A stretch of DNA of 9,133 nt. Origin: Anaerolineales bacterium (GTDB lineage: Bacteria > Chloroflexota > Anaerolineae > Promineifilales > Promineifilaceae). The notes beneath the pieces are model-generated. The model was not told where the DNA came from. It saw only the letters and a program-made list of their open reading frames with translations, and searched no databases. The position numbers were made by a program, and so were the translations under genes. This document shows, one piece after another, positions 1 to 8,697 of the stretch; positions within the stretch are counted from its first letter, which is position 1; each line of letters begins with the position of its first letter. The stretch spans positions 1-9,133 of the forward strand of contig JAGQGA010000181.1 of NCBI GenBank assembly GCA_020432595.1, read 5' to 3'.

Positions 1-281
1 GGTGCGGTGGTCGAGGTTTCGTGAAGGAACTCAAAGGTGTCACCAATTTTTATTTCACGGCCGGCTTCGTTGTCGCTGTCGTAGACATAGACGCGGAAGC
101 GGGCAGCCTGCCGCTTGATCCGCTTTTGGCTGTCGCGGAACTGCTCAACCGGCTTTTCTTGCCCGTTCACATCATATTCGGTTGGGAGTTGGCCGGGGCT
201 TTCGGGGGCCAGGTAAAAATCGGTGTCGCTATTGCCCAAACGGGCAATGCCAATGGCGGGGTGGATTTTAAAAACAGTCAT
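1..281 (-). CDS. LodA/GoxA-family CTQ-dependent amino-acid oxidase, N-terminal part (runs off left edge)
   Basis: The frame opens with ATG at 281-279 and stays open for 93 codons to the window edge, so only the N-terminus is present. The protein begins MTVFKIHPAIGIARLGNS, followed by DFYLAPE and later by IKRQAARFRVYVYD. These are the hallmark N-terminal motifs of LodA (L-lysine 6-oxidase) and GoxA (glycine oxidase). Family knowledge: these enzymes oxidatively deaminate an amino acid with O2, releasing ammonia and H2O2, using a cysteine tryptophylquinone built from their own Cys and Trp with help from a LodB-type flavoprotein. The cofactor residues lie in the missing C-terminal part, so activity and substrate cannot be judged. 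An AAGG ribosome site (complement of 289-292) sits 7 bases before the ATG. No signal peptide is visible. It lies 93 bases downstream of the tyrosinase gene, on the same strand. A LodB gene is not in the window and might lie beyond the left edge. Confidence 0.88.
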   Translation of the reverse strand, partial: MTVFKIHPAIGIARLGNSDTDFYLAPESPGQLPTEYDVNGQEKPVEQFRDSQKRIKRQAARFRVYVYDSDNEAGREIKIGDTFEFLHETSTTA

Positions 282-303
282 AGGATTGCCTTTTAAAAAT
301 AGG

Positions 304-330
304 ACACGGACGAACACGGACGAACACGGA
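304..330. repeat. Short tandem repeat, 10-bp unit CGAACACGGA, about 2.7 copies
   Basis: Two perfect copies of CGAACACGGA (311-320 and 321-330) follow a partial copy, ACACGGA (304-310). The repeat fills the middle of the 93-base gap between the tyrosinase and LodA-like genes. No convincing terminator or promoter is seen in this gap, so the two genes may be co-transcribed. Confidence 0.75.
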
Positions 331-374
331 TGTCTTTGCATTGTTTCCGCCGCGTTATCGTCTGCTGTGTCTGC

Positions 375-2498
375 TTAGTCTATGAGGTTGAGCGAAACGC
401 CGTCAAGGTAGAGGGCGTTTTCGCTGGGCTGCCCGTCAATGCCTAAAACAACGAGGTGGAGCGAGAGTTCGGTTTGGCCGAGGCTGGCGAGGTATTTGAC
501 GGCATCGGTGGCATCAAGGCGGGCGTTGCGGGGTTCATGGTGGTGTAACGGCCGTTTATCAAACCGTCGGCTACGCGGCAAAGGCAAATCACAGTGGCCC
601 GGGCCACCATAGCAACTGCCGCCAAAGGTCATAAACTCGCCCACAAAATGGGGGTTGTTTTCCATAGGTGTGGCTTCATTGGCATCGGGCGTGTTGAGAA
701 AGACCCGAATGCTGGCGTTGTTGGCGACGCGCTGGATGCGGTGCAGCCGCACTTCGGCACGACTGTTGGGGTTGTGCTGGAAGTCGGTGAGGGCGGGGGG
801 GGAAACGGCCGTTTTTTCCGAATGAAACCGCACCATGGGTAGCTCGCTGACCGTGGGGAAGAAGGCTGAATCTTTGATGTACTCATACCCCAATTTTCGC
901 GTGCTCAACGCCTCGCGTACCGATAGCGACCACGGTGGCAAAATGCCGTCTAGCTCCTCGGGGTTGACATTGGGGTTTTTCTTTTGCCATAGCGCCCAAA
1001 TGCGGTCTACATTGCAATGATGCGCCCAGAAAATCGGATCATATGCCGTTACCCGGTTATCGGTCATGTCGCCAGTGGGTGGATTTTCCTGGCTTTGCGG
1101 ATTGCTGTTCTTCACATAGAAGGGGTTGCTGCCGCCAGCAAAGTTGTGCATACCGTTGTGAACCTTCTCCAGCTTGCCAAAATGGTGGTCATCATCTGGC
1201 CCACCGCCAAAGGTTGCGAAGTCGGTGATGGCGAGAATGTTGTCTACATCCTGCGAACGGGGGTATTGCGTGGGGCGTTGGGCAATAGCTCCCGGCCAGC
1301 GGTTGGCGTGCCACAGAGCATTCACGCGGCGCAGCTCTTTGTAAATCGCCCGGATTTTATCGCTGTATTGGTAATCGTTGCTGCCCAGGGGCACCACTTC
1401 ATAGTTGACCTTTGTTTTTGCCAGCAAACGTGCCCCAGAGTTGAAAGATTGCCCGACAATCTTTTTGAGGCTGTTGACCTCGCTGGTGGAAAAAATTTGC
1501 AGGGCGGTCAGGTTTTCAATGGCCTGTTCGTCAAGCCAGCAGCGATACGCTTCCGGGATGATGCCTAGATCAAGCTGGGCGGTGTTGTAGGTTTTGGCGT
1601 TGTCTTCGGCATAGGCCGTCCAGTCCCAATAGGGAAGGGTGATGAGCGGGTCAAAATCTTGCAGCATTTGCTCAAAAAAGTAGAGGTAAAGACGGTGCCA
1701 GGGAAGAAAATGTTCCCAGCCGTGTTGGCAGGAGTCGGTGTGGATGCGTGCCCAATACCCCCAACTGCGTTCGTCCTGGCGGTAGGGATCATATTGGTGC
1801 ATACAGGTGATGGCGCGGCGCAGGCCGTTTCGCTCTGTGTCGTTGAGGCAGCGCACATCTTTGCGAACTTTGAGACCGCCTACCTGTTCACGAATGGCGT
1901 TGGTGTGTTCGTCGGAGCGGGCGTGCTGGGCGGCTCCAAAGGACAGGTCGCGCAGTTTATTGGATAGGACGGTGATCTGGCTTTTGGGTGCTTCTGCCTC
2001 TGTTTCGGGGCAGCCGTCGTCAATCCAGGCGGCGATGAAGTTGATGTTTTCGGCGGAAACCGGCTGTTTGGCCTGCCACAACAAGGGTGGGAATTGGCTG
2101 CCGTCGAAGGGAGCTTGCCCGCGTAGCCCTTTGATGAGGCCGGATTGCTCGCTGCGCTGGCTGCCAGCGGGGGCGAATTGCTGCTGTTTACCGCCGGAGG
2201 GCCAACAGTTGGGAGAAACGGCCGTTTCTTCCCCACTTTCCCCACTTTCTGCCTCACCACCCCCACAGCCACACGAACTGCCGCAGCCACAGCCACAATT
2301 AACGGCCGTTTGCGACTGCTTGCCACCAGCCGGGGCAATCATCCGCTGCCCATAAATTTCCAACGCCAAAAATTCAGCCAGCGGCCGCCGCCAGAAAGAG
2401 CCATACCCCTGGTACAAATGGTCAGAAATAGTCTCCCCTTGCGCTTCATCCAATATGTGTTTGACAGTTTCATAACGCGAACGTTTTGTATTTGCCAT
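375..2498 (-). CDS. Tyrosinase/polyphenol oxidase-like type-3 copper protein with N-terminal extension
   Basis: The 707-aa protein has both binuclear copper sites. CuA lies around residues 253-269 (IHTDSCQHGWEHFLPWHR), with ligands H259 and H268; the first ligand is H253 or H234. Cys257 is two residues before H259, the CxH arrangement that forms a Cys-His thioether in fungal tyrosinases. CuB has H447 and H451 (VHNGMH) plus the DPIFWAHHCNVDRIW motif at 487-501. Family activity is o-hydroxylation of phenols and/or oxidation of catechols to quinones; which of these applies is unknown. Residues 1-170 are an extension I cannot assign, with a Cys/Gly-rich stretch at 68-81 (NCGCGCGSSCGCGG) and a segment ending WIDDGCPE. 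The C-terminal 580-707 region looks like a polyphenol-oxidase beta domain and contains GGSCYGGPGHC. No signal peptide is evident. The ATG at 2498 follows AAAGGAA. It lies 264 bases downstream of the multicopper oxidase gene. Confidence 0.92.
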   Translation of the reverse strand: MANTKRSRYETVKHILDEAQGETISDHLYQGYGSFWRRPLAEFLALEIYGQRMIAPAGGKQSQTAVNCGCGCGSSCGCGGGEAESGESGEETAVSPNCWPSGGKQQQFAPAGSQRSEQSGLIKGLRGQAPFDGSQFPPLLWQAKQPVSAENINFIAAWIDDGCPETEAEAPKSQITVLSNKLRDLSFGAAQHARSDEHTNAIREQVGGLKVRKDVRCLNDTERNGLRRAITCMHQYDPYRQDERSWGYWARIHTDSCQHGWEHFLPWHRLYLYFFEQMLQDFDPLITLPYWDWTAYAEDNAKTYNTAQLDLGIIPEAYRCWLDEQAIENLTALQIFSTSEVNSLKKIVGQSFNSGARLLAKTKVNYEVVPLGSNDYQYSDKIRAIYKELRRVNALWHANRWPGAIAQRPTQYPRSQDVDNILAITDFATFGGGPDDDHHFGKLEKVHNGMHNFAGGSNPFYVKNSNPQSQENPPTGDMTDNRVTAYDPIFWAHHCNVDRIWALWQKKNPNVNPEELDGILPPWSLSVREALSTRKLGYEYIKDSAFFPTVSELPMVRFHSEKTAVSPPALTDFQHNPNSRAEVRLHRIQRVANNASIRVFLNTPDANEATPMENNPHFVGEFMTFGGSCYGGPGHCDLPLPRSRRFDKRPLHHHEPRNARLDATDAVKYLASLGQTELSLHLVVLGIDGQPSENALYLDGVSLNLID
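547..556. repeat. AACGGCCGTT palindrome, site 1
   Basis: Exact 10-bp palindrome inside the tyrosinase gene. Here it is read as AAA CGG CCG TTA, giving K-R-P-L (residues 648-651), a different frame from most other copies. Confidence 0.85.
804..813. repeat. AACGGCCGTT palindrome, site 2
   Basis: Exact copy, extended to the 12-mer AAACGGCCGTTT (803-814). It is read as ACG GCC GTT, giving T-A-V at residues 563-565 of the tyrosinase (SEKTAVSPP), between the copper core and the C-terminal domain. Confidence 0.85.
2217..2226. repeat. AACGGCCGTT palindrome, site 3 (with extended flank)
   Basis: Exact copy, extended to AAACGGCCGTTT (2216-2227). It is read as T-A-V at residues 92-94 of the tyrosinase, within SGEETAV. 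The 21 bases 2217-2237 match 3630-3650 in the multicopper oxidase gene at 20 positions. Confidence 0.88.
2301..2310. repeat. AACGGCCGTT palindrome, site 4
   Basis: Exact copy read as T-A-V (residues 64-66, QSQTAVNCG), immediately before the Cys/Gly-rich stretch of the tyrosinase and 84 bases from site 3. Confidence 0.85.
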
Positions 2499-2510
2499 GT
2501 TATGTTCCTT

Positions 2511-2754
2511 TGGAAACAGGATGCAGATTTACCTGATTTGCCTGATCAGTACCTTAACGATGAAATTTTTGTATACAAAACAAGAAGTGACACAGAGTTA
2601 CACAGAGATAAGGAAGAGTTTCACAGAGGAAGCGAGACAAGCAACTCCTTTCTCTCTGTGCTTCTCTGTATCTTCTCTGTGAACCTCTGTGTAACGTTTT
2701 TGGGTTTGGCCTGTCCAGGTTAGAAAGATCAGGTAAATCTGCGTCCCATTTCCA
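2511..2754. repeat. Nested inverted-repeat element between the multicopper oxidase and tyrosinase genes
   Basis: This nearly fills the 264-base gap. Outer arms 2511-2537 and 2728-2754 are inverted repeats matching at 23 of 27 positions (the ATTTACCTGAT block is perfect). Inside, CACAGAG occurs three times (2591, 2601, 2622), and its complement CTCTGTG three times (2654, 2675, 2685) plus one near copy (2664). The pair 2597-2607 / 2685-2695 is a perfect 11-bp inverted match. On the minus strand the transcript could fold into a long imperfect stem. No transposase and no target-site duplication are visible. The left arm begins at the ribosome site of the tyrosinase gene. Confidence 0.75.
2567..2580. 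promoter_or_regulatory. Perfect 14-bp palindrome TTTTGTATACAAAA, possible operator
   Basis: A perfect palindrome about 70 bases upstream of the tyrosinase start, inside the inverted-repeat element. TTGTATACAA-like palindromes are typical of dimeric repressor sites (GntR-type among others), but no regulator gene is in the window. It could equally be a by-product of the repeat structure. Confidence 0.3.
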
Positions 2755-2762
2755 TTCATAAA

Positions 2763-5700
2763 TTATCCAGTTTCCGTGGGTGGCTCAACAACAAAGCCGG
2801 GGTAAACCTGGCCGGTGGTGTTGGGATCAACCATCGTCAAACTCTGGCGATAAAATGCCTGCAGGTTGGCGCGGTAGTTTTCCGGGTCATCAGAAACAGC
2901 ATAGAGCTGGTTGACCTCTTCCACGGTAGCATCATCGCTGATGACGGCATCGTGAGGAACATAGTTGCTGCGCTCGGCGACAAAAGTTGTTTCTACTGGT
3001 GTCATCATGCCGTTGTCTTCATGCAGCAGCAGGTGGCAGTGGTTGACATAGATCCCGGCAAAGTCGAGGAAGCGGGAGCGGAAGACAATGCGCCCGCCGT
3101 GACGGGGAATCCAAACGGTGTCTTGCCAGCGCGGTTTGTCGAGAATATTGACGAGATTGCCGTCATTGTCGGGGATTTCAATTCGCATCACCCAAAACGG
3201 GTTGGTGTGCATGTGGAAGGGGTGGTCAACGCCACGGGTGACAATGCGGAAATGGTTATTTTCAACAAACCGCTGATGCCCTTCGCCCCGTGATAGCGCA
3301 TAGGCGATGTAATGGTCTTTGTTGCTGCCGTCAGAATTTGTGCCGTAATATTCGTTGCGATCATCACCCCAGAGGGTAATGCCACCGTTATACAGTGCCC
3401 ACTCTTCGGCGCTACCAACAAAGATGATGGGGCGGGCGGGGTCAACGGGGTTAAATTTGCGCGGCGACGGCCGTTTATCTCCTTCGGCAAAGCGCATGTC
3501 AAACTGGTTGTTGATTGACATGGTGCGGGTGTTGGGGGGCATGAGGACGTTGAATTTCTGGCTGCTGGGTTGGGCGTAGATGAGGTTTTCCAGGTTGCCC
3601 TTGTCCTCGGCAATGAACTTTTGGAAATTAACGGCCGTTTCCTCCCCACTCAACTCCGCATCCGTTGTCACCAGCGGAAACCCTTCCGCCCCCCAACCCG
3701 AATACAAAATCGTCCGTGTGCGATATGTTCCCGCTTTTACATCCTGTGAAAACGCTTCCACCTCCATCGTTTGCTGCCCACCCACGGCAAAGGTATGCAT
3801 TCCCACTTCAGCACTATCATTTGGCACCATCACCTCATCAGCTGCAATGGGCATCAGGTAAGGTGGCACATCAACGTTGTCCAGCGCACCCTGCACCACG
3901 TTCATGACATTAACAGCCTCAATTTGTGGTGGTGCCGGGTCAAGCTGGTACGGATTTTTTTTCACAACCACATATGCCACAATGATATGCTGCGGCCAGC
4001 TTACCAAGTCCTTGGTTCCTTGTTGTACCGCTTGCTGAAGTCTTTGCTGATAGGTGTCGGCGTGCAAAACGGCCGCTTTTGCCACCACCGTATAGATCGT
4101 ATCATCCGTCGCCGGAGCCTGGAAAAAGAGGTCAGCGCGGTTGGCCGGAGCCATGTACACCTCATTTGGCCGCACATAACAATCCTTAATGTTCTCTGCC
4201 ATAAAACATTCATGGATGTTTTCTAGCATTGAGGCATTTTCATCATTCCCCAGTGGCTTTGCTAGGGGATAATTAGTCGCCGCCGCTGGGTTTTGCTTAG
4301 CCAGATCGCGCACAACATACCGGGCATTTTGACTATCTCCCTCTACAAAAGTAACGCCGTCCATTGCCATTTGGTACAACTGTATCTTGGCATCCTCAAT
4401 GTCTTGCAAGGTCATCGGTGTCAGCGAACCATCTTGTTCCACCCGTTGCAGCAGGTTGTTGTCTGTGACATATTGCCCTTTCAACACCATAAAATGCTTG
4501 TAACCACGGCCATCCACACTGCCATTAATGACGCGCCACCGTTCCACTGCCCCCGGCCGCATTAAAATGATGCGCGGTGTGCTGGAACCATTAATGGCTG
4601 GAGTTACGTCAGGACGCAGGACATTCTTCTTTTGTGGCTGATTTGTGGGCGCGTCCAAGTCGCCCGCCCGGCCGCCTTGGAATACGCGCTGCATAAACAT
4701 AAGCCGTTCCCGATAATCGTTGGGGCCTGTTTTGGCATCCAAATTTGGCACCAACTGGGTATCCGCCCCAAACGCCGTGTTGATTGCTTCATCCACATCC
4801 CCTTCCACAACCAAAAACCCCGCCATACCGCTGGATACCTGATCGTGCGTAGCACCATGTGAATGGGGATGATACCAATGGGTGCCGGGTGGGTGCGGCT
4901 GCTTGGCATCACCCATCACATTGCCAATACGAAACTCGTAGTCACCTTGCCCTACTTGTTCATTGGGGTTGAGAAATAGGCAGTTGGGGTCATTGCTGGC
5001 CTGGCGGCGGCGCAAGTCGGCTTGCGGCATAATCCGCAAGATGATGTTGTCGGAGTGGGTGCCATCGGGGTTGCGGCCGGGGCGAACATGCAGCCCGTGG
5101 GTGTGCAAGTTGGTGACACGCGCCGAGTGCTGACCATTTACATGTTCTTCTAAGCACCAATCATGGCGATAGTTGCCTCTGTCCTGGGCAATTTTTTGCA
5201 CTTGCGCGGCGGTCAGCCCTTCGACAAGTTCCGCGTTGTCGGGGAATTCCTTGATATAGCTTTCGCCAAAATTGGCACCAAGGAAGTTGCGTAATTTAAC
5301 AAAGAGCGTCTCATTGCCACCCATGCGGATCGTGGGGCCGGGGGTGATGCCGCCGTAGCTGAACAAAGCGGCATCGGGATTGCCAAAACCAATGGTGGCA
5401 CCGGGATTTTCATTTTCCACAAAGTTGAGGTTAAGCTGCTGCCCCGGCCAATCGCTGGGTCGCCATACCCAGGGTTCAATCCAGGTTTCAAAAAGCTGGT
5501 CGCTGGTTAGGTCAATGGGGGTGGTCGTGGGTGGTGGGGTCGCTTTGGCACCGCCCCCGCTACCAGCCTGGTTGCCGCCTCCTCCCCCGCTGCCGCTGCC
5601 GGATTGGGCGGCTGGGGCGGCGGTAATGTCGCTGGCTCTGTTGGTAAGGCTGGCAACGCCGGCCGTGCCGAGTAGAGCAGCACCGGCGATGGCACCTTGG

Positions 5701-5771
5701 ATGAAGCCGCGACGGGTGATGGTTGGCTTAACGGCCGTTTCCTGTTGCTGTGTATCCTGGGGATCAGACAT
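2763..5771 (-). CDS. Large Tat-exported multicopper oxidase (laccase/CueO-like superfamily)
   Basis: The 1002-aa protein has a twin-arginine signal (TRRGFIQG, residues 19-26) followed by a hydrophobic stretch to about 42, then a Gly/Ser-rich linker (57-75), so it should be exported folded with its copper. All four copper motifs are present: NLHTHG (H223, H225), HWYHPHSHG (H301, H303), HPFHMH (H850, H853, H855) and HCHLLLHEDNGM (H911, C912, H913, H917, M922). C912, H850, H917 and M922 form type 1 copper; the other eight histidines form the trinuclear site. Family reaction: four one-electron oxidations of phenols, amines or metals coupled to reduction of O2 to water. Its length is about twice that of usual bacterial laccases; the extra sequence lies mainly in the middle (about 330-640) and before the fourth-to-last motifs. 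The ATG at 5771 has AGGAGG (complement of 5777-5782) 5 bases upstream. It is probably the first gene of the oxidase cluster. Substrate unknown. Confidence 0.94.
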   Translation of the reverse strand: MSDPQDTQQQETAVKPTITRRGFIQGAIAGAALLGTAGVASLTNRASDITAAPAAQSGSGSGGGGGNQAGSGGGAKATPPPTTTPIDLTSDQLFETWIEPWVWRPSDWPGQQLNLNFVENENPGATIGFGNPDAALFSYGGITPGPTIRMGGNETLFVKLRNFLGANFGESYIKEFPDNAELVEGLTAAQVQKIAQDRGNYRHDWCLEEHVNGQHSARVTNLHTHGLHVRPGRNPDGTHSDNIILRIMPQADLRRRQASNDPNCLFLNPNEQVGQGDYEFRIGNVMGDAKQPHPPGTHWYHPHSHGATHDQVSSGMAGFLVVEGDVDEAINTAFGADTQLVPNLDAKTGPNDYRERLMFMQRVFQGGRAGDLDAPTNQPQKKNVLRPDVTPAINGSSTPRIILMRPGAVERWRVINGSVDGRGYKHFMVLKGQYVTDNNLLQRVEQDGSLTPMTLQDIEDAKIQLYQMAMDGVTFVEGDSQNARYVVRDLAKQNPAAATNYPLAKPLGNDENASMLENIHECFMAENIKDCYVRPNEVYMAPANRADLFFQAPATDDTIYTVVAKAAVLHADTYQQRLQQAVQQGTKDLVSWPQHIIVAYVVVKKNPYQLDPAPPQIEAVNVMNVVQGALDNVDVPPYLMPIAADEVMVPNDSAEVGMHTFAVGGQQTMEVEAFSQDVKAGTYRTRTILYSGWGAEGFPLVTTDAELSGEETAVNFQKFIAEDKGNLENLIYAQPSSQKFNVLMPPNTRTMSINNQFDMRFAEGDKRPSPRKFNPVDPARPIIFVGSAEEWALYNGGITLWGDDRNEYYGTNSDGSNKDHYIAYALSRGEGHQRFVENNHFRIVTRGVDHPFHMHTNPFWVMRIEIPDNDGNLVNILDKPRWQDTVWIPRHGGRIVFRSRFLDFAGIYVNHCHLLLHEDNGMMTPVETTFVAERSNYVPHDAVISDDATVEEVNQLYAVSDDPENYRANLQAFYRQSLTMVDPNTTGQVYPGFVVEPPTETG
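3467..3474. repeat. ACGGCCGT palindrome core (9/10 match to the longer form)
   Basis: The 8-bp core is exact; the 10-mer differs only in its first base (GACGGCCGTT). It is read as K-R-P (residues 766-768 of the multicopper oxidase), the same frame as site 1. A further 9/10 variant, AACGGCCGCT, lies at 4068-4077 in the same gene. Confidence 0.7.
3630..3639. repeat. AACGGCCGTT palindrome, site 5 (with extended flank)
   Basis: Exact copy read as T-A-V at residues 712-714 of the multicopper oxidase, within SGEETAV. It is the partner of site 3: the flank to 3650 is shared apart from one base. Confidence 0.88.
5730..5739. repeat. AACGGCCGTT palindrome, site 6
   Basis: Exact copy read as T-A-V at residues 12-14 of the multicopper oxidase (QQQETAVKP), just before the twin-arginine motif. 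The TTTCCT flank resembles that of site 5. Confidence 0.85.
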
Positions 5772-5942
5772 GGTTTCCTCCTGTATGTCTTAGCCTAATG
5801 AAAACATTAACAGCCTTCCCAAGGAGATGCGTCAGCGATTAGACACATCTGATGGCAAGGTTATATTGTGTGAGCGGTGGTTGTGGTCTTGAATGGCAGG
5901 ATAGAGGGCATAGAGCCAAGACGGATGTGGACGGTAGGTATT

Positions 5943-5983
5943 TTGCTGTAGTATAGGCCACTAACGTGACCAAAACGTGACCA
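5943..5983 (-). promoter_or_regulatory. Putative promoter of the oxidase cluster with paired 11-bp-spaced direct repeats
   Basis: On the minus strand, GGTCACG occurs twice (complements of 5976-5982 and 5965-5971), separated by TTTT, a period of 11 bp; on the plus strand the shared block is AACGTGACCA. Nine bases further downstream lies TATACT (complement of 5950-5955), a 5/6 match to a -10 box. No good -35 box is seen at the expected place, which is instead occupied by the repeats. Two tandem 7-bp repeats with 4-bp spacing just upstream of a -10 is the layout of PhoB/OmpR-family activator sites. Start of transcription would be near 5943, leaving a leader of about 170 bases before the multicopper oxidase. 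The assignment is inference. Confidence 0.4.
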
Positions 5984-6082
5984 CCGTCAGCGGCAACTCC
6001 CCAAATGTGGTTAAGAGGATTAGACGATAGCGATGAATGTGGTTGTGGGCAATCGTTTAGGAGATATGTCCTATGAATTTTG
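5984..6082. other. Non-coding spacer between the oxidase promoter and the sdh terminator
   Basis: With the promoter and leader, this is part of the 368-base gap between the multicopper oxidase and sdhB. Only very short reading frames are present (for example 17 codons or fewer near 6032 on the plus strand). No RNA gene was recognised. Confidence 0.55.
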
Positions 6083-6116
6083 AAAAAAAAAGAGCGAGTT
6101 TTGGAACTCGCTCTTT
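6083..6116 (-). terminator. Intrinsic terminator of the sdh operon
   Basis: A perfect 12-bp inverted repeat (AAAGAGCGAGTT at 6089-6100, its complement at 6105-6116) has a 4-base loop, and is followed on the minus strand by a run of nine T (complement of 6083-6091). It starts 24 bases beyond the sdhB stop, and isolates the sdh operon from the oxidase cluster downstream. Confidence 0.93.
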
Positions 6117-6139
6117 CTCATTGCGTTAAAAAAGGTTCG

Positions 6140-6862
6140 CTATATCTTGCCGCTTGTTAGAGCCATCTTCACTTCGGCAATGGCGCGGGTGACTTCAATT
6201 TCACGGGGGCAGGCGTTGCTACAGTTGAAGTTGGTGCGGCAGCGCCACACGCCAAAGGTGTCGCCCACCACTTCCAGCCGTTCCTCAAATGCCTCATCGC
6301 GGGTGTCAAAGATAAAACGGTGGGCTTGCACAATGGCGGCCGGCCCGATGTATTTCTCATTAGCCCAAAAGCTGGGGCAGGAGGAGGTGCAGGCGGCGCA
6401 AAGGATACACTTGGTGGTGTCGTCAAAGCGGGCGCGGTCTTCCTGGCTTTGCAGCCGTTCACGGCCGTTGGCCGGTAAGGGGTTGTCGTTGACAAAGTAG
6501 GGCATGACGGAACGGTAGTGGTCGAAAAACGGTTCCATATCAACCACCAAATCCTTGATGATTTGCATCCCCAAAATTGGCTCAACCTGAATCCTGGCGT
6601 AGTTGTTATCCTTGGTTAACCGTGTTACCAGCGTTTTGCACGCCAGCATGTTGGCACCGTTAATTCGCAGGGCATCTGACCCACATACACCGTGGGCACA
6701 AGAGCGACGCAAAGTTAAGGTGCCGTCTTGCTCCCATTTGATACGGTGGAGCAAATCTAACACGGTATCGGTGGCACGCACTTTTTCCAAAGTGTATTCA
6801 CCCCACCACGGCTTTTGGTCTTTTTCCGGGTTAAAGCGACGGACTCGCAAATCTACTTTCAT
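6140..6862 (-). CDS. sdhB: Succinate dehydrogenase iron-sulfur subunit
   Basis: The 240-aa protein carries the three clusters that pass electrons from the SdhA flavin to quinone in the membrane. The [2Fe-2S] ligands are C55, C60, D63 and C75 (SCAHGVCGSDAL...NMLAC); Asp in the third position is also found in E. coli SdhB. The C-terminal ferredoxin-like domain has CILCAACTSSCP (C152, C155, C158, C162) and CRTNFNCSNACP (C208, C214, C218), supplying the [4Fe-4S] and [3Fe-4S] clusters. The length is normal for the family. The ATG at 6862 follows AGGGA (complement of 6871-6875) by 8 bases. It lies 50 bases after sdhA and is the last gene before the terminator. It acts at the inner face of the cytoplasmic membrane in the TCA cycle and respiratory chain. 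Confidence 0.97.
   Translation of the reverse strand: MKVDLRVRRFNPEKDQKPWWGEYTLEKVRATDTVLDLLHRIKWEQDGTLTLRRSCAHGVCGSDALRINGANMLACKTLVTRLTKDNNYARIQVEPILGMQIIKDLVVDMEPFFDHYRSVMPYFVNDNPLPANGRERLQSQEDRARFDDTTKCILCAACTSSCPSFWANEKYIGPAAIVQAHRFIFDTRDEAFEERLEVVGDTFGVWRCRTNFNCSNACPREIEVTRAIAEVKMALTSGKI
6461..6468. repeat. ACGGCCGT palindrome core in sdhB
   Basis: Exact 8-bp core; the 10-mer form is CACGGCCGTT. It is read in the third frame, AAC GGC CGT, giving N-G-R (residues 132-134). Confidence 0.6.
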
Positions 6863-6876
6863 AATCTTTTTCCCTG

Positions 6877-6913
6877 AAAATAAGAGGTTCTGTCTTGAAG
6901 AACCCTCTATTTT
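6877..6913 (-). promoter_or_regulatory. Imperfect hairpin between sdhA and sdhB
   Basis: Arms 6877-6891 and 6899-6913 pair at 12 of 15 positions around a 7-base loop. The hairpin starts within the sdhA stop codon and ends just before the sdhB ribosome site. The trailing T run is only four long, so it is a poor terminator. A role in partial attenuation or mRNA processing is possible. Confidence 0.4.
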
Positions 6914-8697
6914 TAATAGACACGCTCTTTTGGCTGGTAACGGCCGATCACAACGGGTTTATAGTCAAGACGCAGCTTGCCGTTTTCGGAGAAGCAGAGG
7001 GTGTGCTTCAGCCAATCCACGTCGTTGCGTTTGGGATAGTCGTCGCGGGCGTGTCCACCTCGGCTTTCGGTGCGGTTTAGGGCAGAAACGGCCGTTATCT
7101 CCGCCAACTCCAGCAAACACCCCAACTCCCACGCCTCCAACAAATCCGTGTTGAACCGCGCCCCCTTATCATCAATTTGAATATTCCGGTTATATTCCGC
7201 CCGCAGCAGCCGCAAATCGTCCACTGCCTTGCTAATCGTCTCATCTGTGCGGAATACCCCCACATTATCCGTCATCGTCTTCTGCATCTGCTTGCGCAGC
7301 TCATACGGCTTCGCCCCACCACTCCCATTGCGAATCCGGTCAAACTCAGCCATCACCTCATCCACCGGATTCTTTGGCAGCGGCAGCTTCTCCGCTTCTT
7401 TACAATATTGCGCCATGTGGACACCCGAACGGCGGCCAAACACCACCAAATCAACCAAGGAATTGGTTCCCAACCGGTTTGCCCCATGCACCGACACGCA
7501 GGCACATTCCCCGGCTGCATACAGCCCCGCCAGCACCTTGTTGTTCTGATCCAGCACCACACGGCCGTCAACATCCGTAGGAATGCCACCCATGGCATAG
7601 TGCGCCGTTGGCTGAATGGGCATTGGCTCTTTCACCGGGTCAACCCCCAAATAGGTGCGCGTAAAATCGGCAATATCCGGCAGCTTGGCCTCAACATATT
7701 CACGGGTAATGCGGCGTGATTCTCCCGCCTCAGCTAAATATTTGTTCACCGTTTCCGGGGTAATATCCAAATGGACATAATTCTCCCCGTTAATGCCTCG
7801 GCCGGCTTGAATTTCCAAAAAGATAGCTCGGCTTACCACATCACGGCTTGCCAAATCCTTAATGCTGGGAGCATATTTCTCCATGAAACGCTCCCCCTTG
7901 CTGTTGAGCAACACGCCACCTTCGCCGCGTACCCCTTCCGTAATCAAAATACCTAAGCGATAGATACCCGTGGGGTGGAACTGGAAGAACTCCATATCTT
8001 CCATAGGAATGTTGCGCCGTACACAGATGGCCGCTCCATCCCCGGTCAGCGAATGGGCATTGGAGGTAACTTCCCAGCAGCGACCCCAGCCACCTGTGGC
8101 AAACAACACGGCCTTGCTGTGAAAGACATGAAAATCGCCCGTGCTAATTTCCACCGCCACCACGCCGCGCACCGTGTCACCCACACGAATCAGATCAACC
8201 ACATGGAATTCATCAAAAAAGTTGACCTTGTTCTTAATGCACTGCTGGTAAAGCGTTTGCAAAATCATGTGGCCGGTGCGGTCGGCGGCGTGGCAAGCAC
8301 GCTGCACCGGTTTGCCCGTTTCGTTGTTGGTGTGGCCGCCAAAACGCCGCTGCGAGATTTTACCGTTGGGGAATCGGTCAAAAGGTAGCCCCATATGCTC
8401 CAACTCGATAACCGTGTCAATGGCTTCCTTGCAAAGCACATCAACAGCGTCTTGGTCAGCCAAATAATCCGACCCCTTTACGGTGTCATAGGCGTGCCAT
8501 TCCCACCTGTCTTCTTCAATATTGCCCAGCGCGGCCCCAATGCCACCCTGTGCTGCCCCCGTGTGCGAACGGGTGGGGTAGAGTTTGGAAATAACGGCCA
8601 CGTTGACTTCACGGCTGGCGTAAAGAGCCGCCATCAGACCAGCACCCCCTGCGCCAACGATGATTGCATCAAAAGAATGTGTTTTAACTTCTGCCAT
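6913..8697 (-). CDS. sdhA: Succinate dehydrogenase flavoprotein subunit
   Basis: The 594-aa subunit oxidises succinate to fumarate and passes electrons to SdhB. The N-terminus has the dinucleotide-binding GAGGAG (residues 15-20) and SHTGAAQGG, where H45 is the expected site of covalent FAD attachment. Substrate-site motifs are FHPTGIY (240-246), RGEGG (258-262), H366 in PTAHYAMGG, and [20 protein letters not shown] (R408). The C-terminus has [13 protein letters not shown]. The length is normal and no motif is missing. The ATG at 8697 is preceded by AGGAG (complement of 8704-8708) with a 6-base gap, which supports this start. It follows sdhD after 177 bases that contain a REP-like doublet, and precedes sdhB by 50 bases. 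The start [18 protein letters not shown] is like SdhA of Thermus/Chloroflexota-type complexes. Confidence 0.98.
7087..7096. repeat. AACGGCCGTT palindrome, site 7
   Basis: Exact copy read as T-A-V (residues 535-537, AEITAVSAL) in sdhA. This is a conserved stretch of the family where such residues are normal, so here the palindrome looks like codon choice and not an insertion. Confidence 0.8.
7561..7568. repeat. ACGGCCGT palindrome core in sdhA
   Basis: Exact 8-bp core read as GAC GGC CGT (D-G-R, residues 377-379). A 9/10 variant of the full form, AACGGCCGAT, lies near the 3' end of the gene at 6939-6948 (I-G-R-Y). Confidence 0.55.

Follow-up and report, generated by a model that had tools for sequence, protein, structure and literature searches.

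We have analysed a window of 9,133 nucleotides (nt) from a member of the Chloroflexota, and in particular the short palindrome ACGGCCGT that recurs through its genes. A preliminary description of this DNA had recorded seven copies of a 10-mer, AACGGCCGTT, and ten of the octamer that lies within it, and had likened them to HIP1, a highly iterated palindrome (HIP) of cyanobacteria. The octamer is a real and active-looking highly iterated palindrome. It matches the cyanobacterial HIPs in the class of its sequence, in density and conservation and in the switching of words among lineages, and is their equivalent in the Chloroflexota. The genes of the window, the copies and near copies of the palindrome, and the tripeptide read at each copy are as follows.

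3-341, minus strand: N-terminal fragment of LodA (LodA-type L-lysine epsilon-oxidase)
375-2498, minus strand: tyrosinase-domain protein (PF00264), host of four copies
547-556: AACGGCCGTT (octamer at 548-555), tyrosinase-like open reading frame (ORF), frame K-R-P
804-813: AACGGCCGTT, tyrosinase-like ORF, frame T-A-V
2217-2226: AACGGCCGTT, tyrosinase-like ORF, frame T-A-V
2301-2310: AACGGCCGTT, tyrosinase-like ORF, frame T-A-V
2763-5771, minus strand: multicopper oxidase (PF07731, weak PF07732), host of three copies
3467-3474: ACGGCCGT, multicopper oxidase ORF, frame K-R-P
3630-3639: AACGGCCGTT, multicopper oxidase ORF, frame T-A-V
4068-4077: near copy AACGGCCGCT, with the CGGCCG core
5730-5739: AACGGCCGTT, multicopper oxidase ORF, frame T-A-V
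6140-6862, minus strand: succinate dehydrogenase iron-sulfur subunit, SdhB-like (PF13085 and 4Fe-4S domains), host of one copy
6461-6468: ACGGCCGT, sdhB-like ORF, frame N-G-R
6913-8697, minus strand: succinate dehydrogenase flavoprotein SdhA (PF00890, PF02910), host of two copies and used for placing the window
6939-6948: near copy AACGGCCGAT, with the CGGCCG core
7087-7096: AACGGCCGTT, sdhA, frame T-A-V; octamer in the same alignment column in 14 of 26 aligned sequences (window included)
7561-7568: ACGGCCGT, sdhA, frame D-G-R; octamer in the same alignment column in 13 of 26 aligned sequences (window included)

The seven 10-mers and ten octamers thus lie where they had been reported, with the octamer beginning one base after the start of the 10-mer, and both near copies are present. 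In 200 dinucleotide shuffles of the window, the octamer occurs 0.14 times on average (maximum 2) and the 10-mer 0.01 times (maximum 1); the core CGGCCG is found 20 times in the real sequence. Six of the octamers are read as Thr-Ala-Val (TAV), two as (N/D)GR and two as KRP, and all ten lie within minus-strand ORFs. That all copies are inside genes and use three frames is therefore correct for the window (10/10), but it does not hold in general: in 10 contigs of five relatives, each counted with its own octamer, the density is 2.01/kb in ORFs and still 1.35/kb in noncoding DNA. The view that the constraint acts on DNA rather than on one peptide is supported. As for the 10-mer, its copies are real, but the repeated unit proper is ACGGCCGT, an octamer built on CGGCCG. 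The A..T that flanks it in the 10-mer reflects the preference of particular lineages, because the base favoured at position -1 is C in three relatives (G002, G259 and G382) and A in another (G019).

All genome-wide figures in this work derive from relatives of the window and not from its own genome. For placement we have used the best 80 of 164 SdhA relatives, among which 25 show 78-85% identity and the other 55 at most 71%. The 25 come from metagenome-assembled genomes (MAGs) titled Chloroflexi/Chloroflexota, Anaerolineae, Anaerolineales, Anaerolineaceae, Ardenticatenia, Ardenticatenaceae or Promineifilum. The group that bears the octamer is one order of uncultured Chloroflexota, window included, whose GTDB name we take to be Promineifilales. 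Among the 30 genomes reached via SdhA loci, G002 contains 15,031 copies of ACGGCCGT in 7.2 Mb against 130 of a reversed-word control, while each of the five outgroup genomes has 0-53 copies. In a sample of 396 genomes of the class, 21 carry at least 0.4 ACGGCCGT/kb, all of them belonging to the order, for which 56 genomes were analysed; elsewhere in the sample, densities do not exceed about 0.12/kb. Within these 56, 30 genomes reach 0.4/kb and 27 reach 0.9/kb (range 0.99-2.1/kb), 26 of the latter with 5,641-15,176 copies each. If any version of the octamer is counted, 31 of the 56 have one at no less than 0.9/kb.

The excess has been measured as the ratio of observed to expected counts (O/E) under a third-order Markov model with the octamer masked. 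It is 81 in four pooled ACGGCCGT genomes (1.03 Mb), and the genome-wide frequency is thus far from the Markov expectation, which was the check proposed in the preliminary description. In the G002 sample, no 8-mer has a higher O/E than ACGGCCGT (837 in 400 kb, 49-fold over a second-order model). When codons are shuffled synonymously, an excess of 8- to 14-fold remains in 6/6 genomes sampled. A chance cluster or codon bias is ruled out by the shuffles, the synonymous shuffles and the whole-genome counts; together with composition bias or an assembly artefact it has nothing in its favour, the excess being found in whole-genome counts across many MAGs, and we regard its probability as negligible. 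At most inner positions, one-step neighbours of the word do not exceed expectation by much or fall below it. In the pooled A..T genomes, they show O/E of 0.42-1.14 at these positions, with 0.72-1.14 at position 4 (two position-4 changes are raised in G007, to 1.45 and 2.34), and it is mainly the outer pair at which neighbours are raised, up to 4-fold.

Sister lineages use alternative words. G007 has 12,040 copies of GCGGCCGC in 8.0 Mb and merely 83 of ACGGCCGT, and GCGGCCGC leads all 8-mers of its sample in O/E (37-fold); TCGGCCGA is present 9,414 times in G413 and 7,668 times in G124; and G018 has 3,665 copies of TGCCGGCA in 4.0 Mb, a word that was noticed as a control of the whole-genome counts (these counts leave out CCGGCCGG). 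Under the masked model, O/E is 54 in G007 and 88 in G413 and G124 together; for TGCCGGCA it is 21 (144 observed vs 6.7 in 140 kb of G018). The outer base pair on the CGGCCG core varies by lineage (A:T, G:C or T:A), and a fourth lineage uses TGCCGGCA. In G180, the A..T, T..A and G..C words have similar counts (1,727, 1,326 and 1,462), and in small samples of G009/G010, G022 and G013 the core reaches 3.1-3.4/kb with the outer pair weakly or not fixed; five outgroup loci have 0.05 cores/kb. Samples of 28-42 kb from G415, G329 and G356 contain no dominant octamer. In-place conversion of outer pairs between sisters was considered and rejected: when the sites of ACGGCCGT in 8 carriers were aligned with G007, 3 of the 36 distinct ones bore its own GCGGCCGC, and for G413 too little sequence is alignable.

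In G007 we have also seen that GCCGGC occurs once in 394 kb (L195-L214) against 132 expected from base composition, that GGGCCC occurs 5 times, and that GCCGCGGC is sixfold over a Markov model. The scarcity of GCCGGC and GGGCCC suggests restriction avoidance alongside the dominant GCGGCCGC.

The octamer is conserved in place among near relatives. In eight near pairs (79-93% identity), a fraction of 0.80-0.96 of octamers is kept, whereas other octamers in the same phase, 12-60 bases away, reach 0.18-0.57. For 14 more distant pairs (71-75% identity), DNA alignments, which favour conserved regions, give 0.47-0.89 vs 0.05-0.19 for control octamers. The pairs share genomes and are hence not independent. 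Expressed as a ratio of log conservation, octamer turnover in the eight near pairs is 0.07-0.24 of local turnover. By our own arithmetic, the ratio predicted at equilibrium is about 0.012 for protection only and about 0.055 for a directional force of scaled strength ln 81. The measured ratios argue against protection alone and agree with a directional force, although turnover is greater than its simplest form predicts. We have counted gains of 3, 3, 1, 4 and 1 and losses of 4, 4, 3, 3 and 1 in five triples that overlap; as gains about equal losses, the system looks active. The 28 one-step differences between orthologs are most commonly C2>T (11), and never fall on positions 4 or 5 (0/28). At the protein level, motif-coded TAV is kept at 23/42 sites between G002 and G382 (tripeptides generally: 0.38), and a comparison with G019 is weighed below. 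From the near-pair conservation and the distant protein comparisons, we conclude that sites are strongly retained over short evolutionary distances and undergo turnover over long ones.

Spacing and flanks have been examined in the relatives' contigs. The coefficient of variation (CV) of octamer spacing is within 2 standard deviations (sd) of the null in 7/10 contigs, with two contigs clustered (1.33, 1.17) and one more even (0.84), and distances below 100 bases are rarer than expected in 8/10. With such near-random CVs there is no clear sign of a set interval in the 10 contigs. In contigs L175-L264, G is enriched about 1.5-1.9-fold in the 5' flanks, most strongly at -3/-4, on both strands and in coding as well as noncoding DNA; the skew is absent around CGGCCG outside the octamer and weaker in most phage-collection loci. 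A cruciform or extended inverted repeat was rejected, for flank complementarity is not consistently above the product of the marginals and the largest deviations (about 3 sd) go in both directions.

The octamer has shaped proteins, replacing amino acids at weakly constrained positions. Four carriers have 32.5-39.7 TAV per 10,000 residues, while G007 has 2.9, G018 4.4 and 20 outgroup loci 4.3; the tripeptide is thus 7.6-9.2 times commoner in carriers than in outgroup loci. Frame-0 octamers encode 407 of the 424 TAV in the G002 sample. An apparent depletion of SAV and TAL peptides was given no weight, as TAV itself inflates the expected values. In G007, AAA, the frame-0 peptide of its own octamer, is 2.4-fold over expectation. 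At places orthologous to motif-coded TAV, TAV is found in G007 at 0/45 and in outgroup loci at 3/43, and the word therefore sits mainly at weakly constrained positions. One sdhA column is an example, with TAV and octamer in six sequences and KAV, EAV, QAI, SAV etc. in others.

Some phage loci also carry the word. Outside close pairs, 55 octamers are observed vs 1.1 expected in 39.9 kb of loci picked for high density. This excess is of the order found in hosts, and a repair bias predicts it more readily than selection would. L289 and L343 belong to one 100-kb IMG/VR contig in which the octamer reaches 2.8-3.7/kb, denser than in the sampled host contigs, and which encodes FtsK-like and lytic transglycosylase genes; instead of a phage it may be a conjugative element.

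A search for a matching GGCC/CGGCCG methyltransferase had been proposed as a check in the preliminary description. We have searched the profile families PF00145, PF01555, PF02086, PF03852 and PF12705 in 26 carriers, i.e., genomes with at least 0.4 ACGGCCGT/kb, taking E<1e-19 as a strong PF01555 match and E<1e-50 as the threshold for D12 (PF02086); these are MAGs of unstated completeness, in which single gene absences are weak evidence. No searched family is present in every carrier. PF00145 (C5-methyltransferase) is matched in 15/26 and not in 11/26, and PF01555 (N4/N6) has a best E of 4e-20 or lower in 22/26. The PF01555 match is weak in G001, G003, G025 and G382 (9.5e-10 to 4.6e-4); G003 has a PF00145 match, and the other three carriers have neither a PF00145 nor a strong PF01555 match. 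D12 is found in 22/26. Two D12 enzymes were compared with known ones and proved most similar to E. coli Dam and DpnM, which are GATC-specific; D12 matches at E<=1e-30 occur in 194 of the 396 genomes of the class, and those at E<1e-50 also in five members of the order that lack a dominant octamer (G329, G356, G097, G065 and G313). D12 was set aside as a partner, though not rejected, on these three grounds.

We have further compared 28 octamer users (the 26 carriers, G007 and G018) with eight other order members (G008, G009, G010, G012, G020, G022, G023 and G024), uncorrected for kinship. Strong PF01555 matches are present in 24/28 vs 2/8 (and in 5/5 outgroup genomes), D12 at E<1e-50 in 24/28 vs 0/8, and PF00145 in 16/28 vs 2/8. 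This distribution favours a methylation link to some degree. Regarding the other families, Vsr (PF03852) occurs in 5/26 carriers, and PDDEXK_1 (PF12705) in an ORF of AddA/AddB/RecB size in 4/26, in short ORFs alone in 20, and not at all in 2. On L169 of G012, the low end of a minus-strand D12 methyltransferase frame (168-863) carries an adapter-like peptide, which we take to be a translated Illumina adapter; this end is a probable assembly artefact in the MAG.

The likeness to HIP1 is borne out, in that the octamer behaves like the HIPs. HIP1 (GCGATCGC) and the alternate HIPs are, in the passages on them in Elhai 2015 (PMC4390886), GC-rich perfect palindromes at about 1-2/kb, with few ortholog differences at positions 4/5, and in some genomes another palindrome substitutes, which may differ at positions 1 and 8 alone. 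Ortholog differences avoid positions 4/5 here as well, but genome-wide neighbours at position 4 are near expectation in the A..T genomes and partly above it in G007. Other features have clear parallels: the densities of 0.99-2.1/kb in 27/56 order genomes fall within the class range of about 500-2500 copies/Mb, ACGGCCGT (G002) and GCGGCCGC (G007) are the outstanding overrepresented words and GC-rich palindromes, and GCGGCCGC (G007), TCGGCCGA (G413, G124) and TGCCGGCA (G018) are substitutes in relatives. The word is not HIP1 itself, as the dominant octamer is ACGGCCGT and GCGATCGC occurs 0 times in 394 kb of G007. It differs in its phylum and core (CGGCCG vs CGATCG), in the three of 26 carriers without a strong PF00145/PF01555 candidate, and, as far as observed here, in its imprint on the proteome and its presence in phages; the link to methylation may differ too. 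The word 'phage' does not appear in Elhai 2015 (PMC4390886), and neither of its two 'amino acid' passages deals with effects of HIPs on proteins.

The literature search returned nothing on highly iterated palindromes in Chloroflexi/Chloroflexota; judged by title, start of abstract or term counts, papers on iterated palindromes concern cyanobacteria, their phages or proteins, and the listed papers containing the octamer letters are unrelated by title. Restriction-modification sites are likewise palindromic 6-8-mers, and GCGGCCGC is the NotI site and CGGCCG the EagI site. Such sites are usually avoided, whereas the Chloroflexota words are in excess, in some phage loci too.

How the word is maintained can be explained in several ways. 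We give about an even chance to a ratchet at the DNA level, in which biased repair is guided by a putative reader of CGGCCG and the outer pair, and we lean slightly to biased repair over selection for site function. A putative trans-acting factor would read CGGCCG plus one outer base pair, and near-miss and mutated sites would be resolved toward the exact octamer, most likely because mismatch or strand repair is biased when DNA replicates or recombines. Such a ratchet would act on any DNA copied in the cell. In its favour are the abundance of the word, the lack of excess in most inner one-step neighbours, the ortholog conservation and reduced turnover, the similar gains and losses, the rewritten proteins, the phage loci and the switching of words between sisters. 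If the outer-pair preference of the factor changed, old sites would decay and a new set would accumulate elsewhere. The factor may or may not act through DNA methylation. A more specific proposal, which we regard as rather doubtful, is that the drive comes from a factor of repair or replication peculiar to the order and perhaps needs no cognate methyltransferase: the factor would rewrite host and phage DNA to one octamer, placing about 1 residue in 100 in motif-coded Thr-Ala-Val, and a change of outer pair would switch the word, so that sister lineages and their phages differ.

Several points weigh against the biased-repair interpretation. Abundance and conservation cannot separate selection from repair, because an identical stationary pattern would arise from weak selection at mutation-selection-drift balance. 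The measured turnover exceeds the prediction of 0.055 in 8/8 pairs, and the numbers of gains, losses and one-step differences are small, with overlap among the pairs that yielded them. Between G002 and G019, motif-coded TAV is still TAV at only 4/26 and 4/27 sites, against 0.21 and 0.25 for tripeptides generally; DNA alignments of the same genomes give a conservation of 0.52, yet they are biased toward conserved regions. The phage contigs were drawn by a pattern requiring two close copies, then selected for density, and are without host assignment. Finally, none of PF00145, strong PF01555, PF02086, PF03852 and PF12705 is common to all carriers, though few families were searched.

The rival that survives best is weak selection for site function, a possible though somewhat doubtful explanation, in which a putative dimeric DNA-binding protein (for nucleoid organisation, recombination, repair targeting or self-recognition) would confer a small advantage per copy. 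The perfect symmetry of the octamer, the strong positional conservation among near orthologs, the symmetric G-rich 5' flanks at -3/-4, present in noncoding DNA too and missing around other CGGCCG, and the occurrence in phage contigs argue for it. Near-random spacing does not, as no set interval is evident, nor do the outer pair that differs between sisters with few positions shared and the flank skew that weakens in most phage-collection loci; moreover, similar excesses in host and phage would need selection in both.

A methylation-linked HIP is a form of the biased-repair interpretation, with which its probability overlaps, and taken by itself we hold it to be unlikely. Here a resident methyltransferase would mark the site, and methyl-directed mismatch repair would create and keep it, as Elhai 2015 (PMC4390886) proposed for the cyanobacterial palindromes. 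Sequence class, density and the switch at positions 1/8 match the account given there, in which positions 4 and 5 of HIP1 are protected. The prevalence of C2>T with positions 4/5 unchanged would fit a methylated first cytosine, and PF01555, D12 and PF00145 matches are commoner in octamer users. This model is weakened by the lack of a searched family in all carriers, with G001, G025 and G382 having neither a PF00145 nor a strong PF01555 match, by the strong PF01555 matches in every outgroup genome, and by the Dam/DpnM likeness of the two D12 enzymes and the spread of D12 to order members without a dominant octamer.

More familiar sequence signals fare worse. A DNA uptake sequence (DUS) or uptake signal sequence (USS) for natural transformation, spread through biased uptake, is improbable: such words have a comparable density, one per kb or above, both within and outside coding sequence, but the known ones are non-palindromic, whereas the Chloroflexota word is symmetric, switches its outer pair between sisters and is found in phage contigs. 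Still less probable is that the word acts as Chi does, as a stop signal for a nuclease of the AddAB/RecBCD type, bidirectional through its symmetry. Chi sites are also overrepresented short GC-rich words denser in coding DNA, and the G-rich 5' flanks and phage copies would suit such a signal; on the other hand, the Chloroflexota word is palindromic with a very large excess, and an AddA/AddB/RecB-sized PDDEXK_1 ORF was not detected in 22/26 carriers, although fragmented MAGs could hide some and the RecC/RecD families were not searched. Very-short-patch repair of the Vsr type, in which 5-methylcytosine would be deaminated at the site and repair biased from T to C, is very improbable, for despite C>T being the commonest one-step deviation, PF03852 is in just five carriers and the depletion of neighbours extends beyond T-for-C changes.

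Apart from the palindrome, the LodA-type fragment of the window (3-341) adjoins the tyrosinase-domain protein, which has a Cys/Gly-rich insert, and the large multicopper oxidase is nearby. The three are perhaps a copper/quinone enzyme cluster.

The function and origin of HIPs have been an open question since HIP1 was, reportedly, described by Robinson in 1995. The methylation-repair model can be tested directly by comparison with a second phylum, which has a core of its own, several lineage-specific words on that core, three carriers without a strong cytosine methyltransferase candidate, and phage contigs that carry the word. For the organisms themselves, the sequences of carrier proteins, in Thr-Ala-Val and less so in His/Asn/Asp-Gly-Arg, partly mirror a DNA word and not function, and this imprint bears on annotation, phylogeny and phage-host matching.

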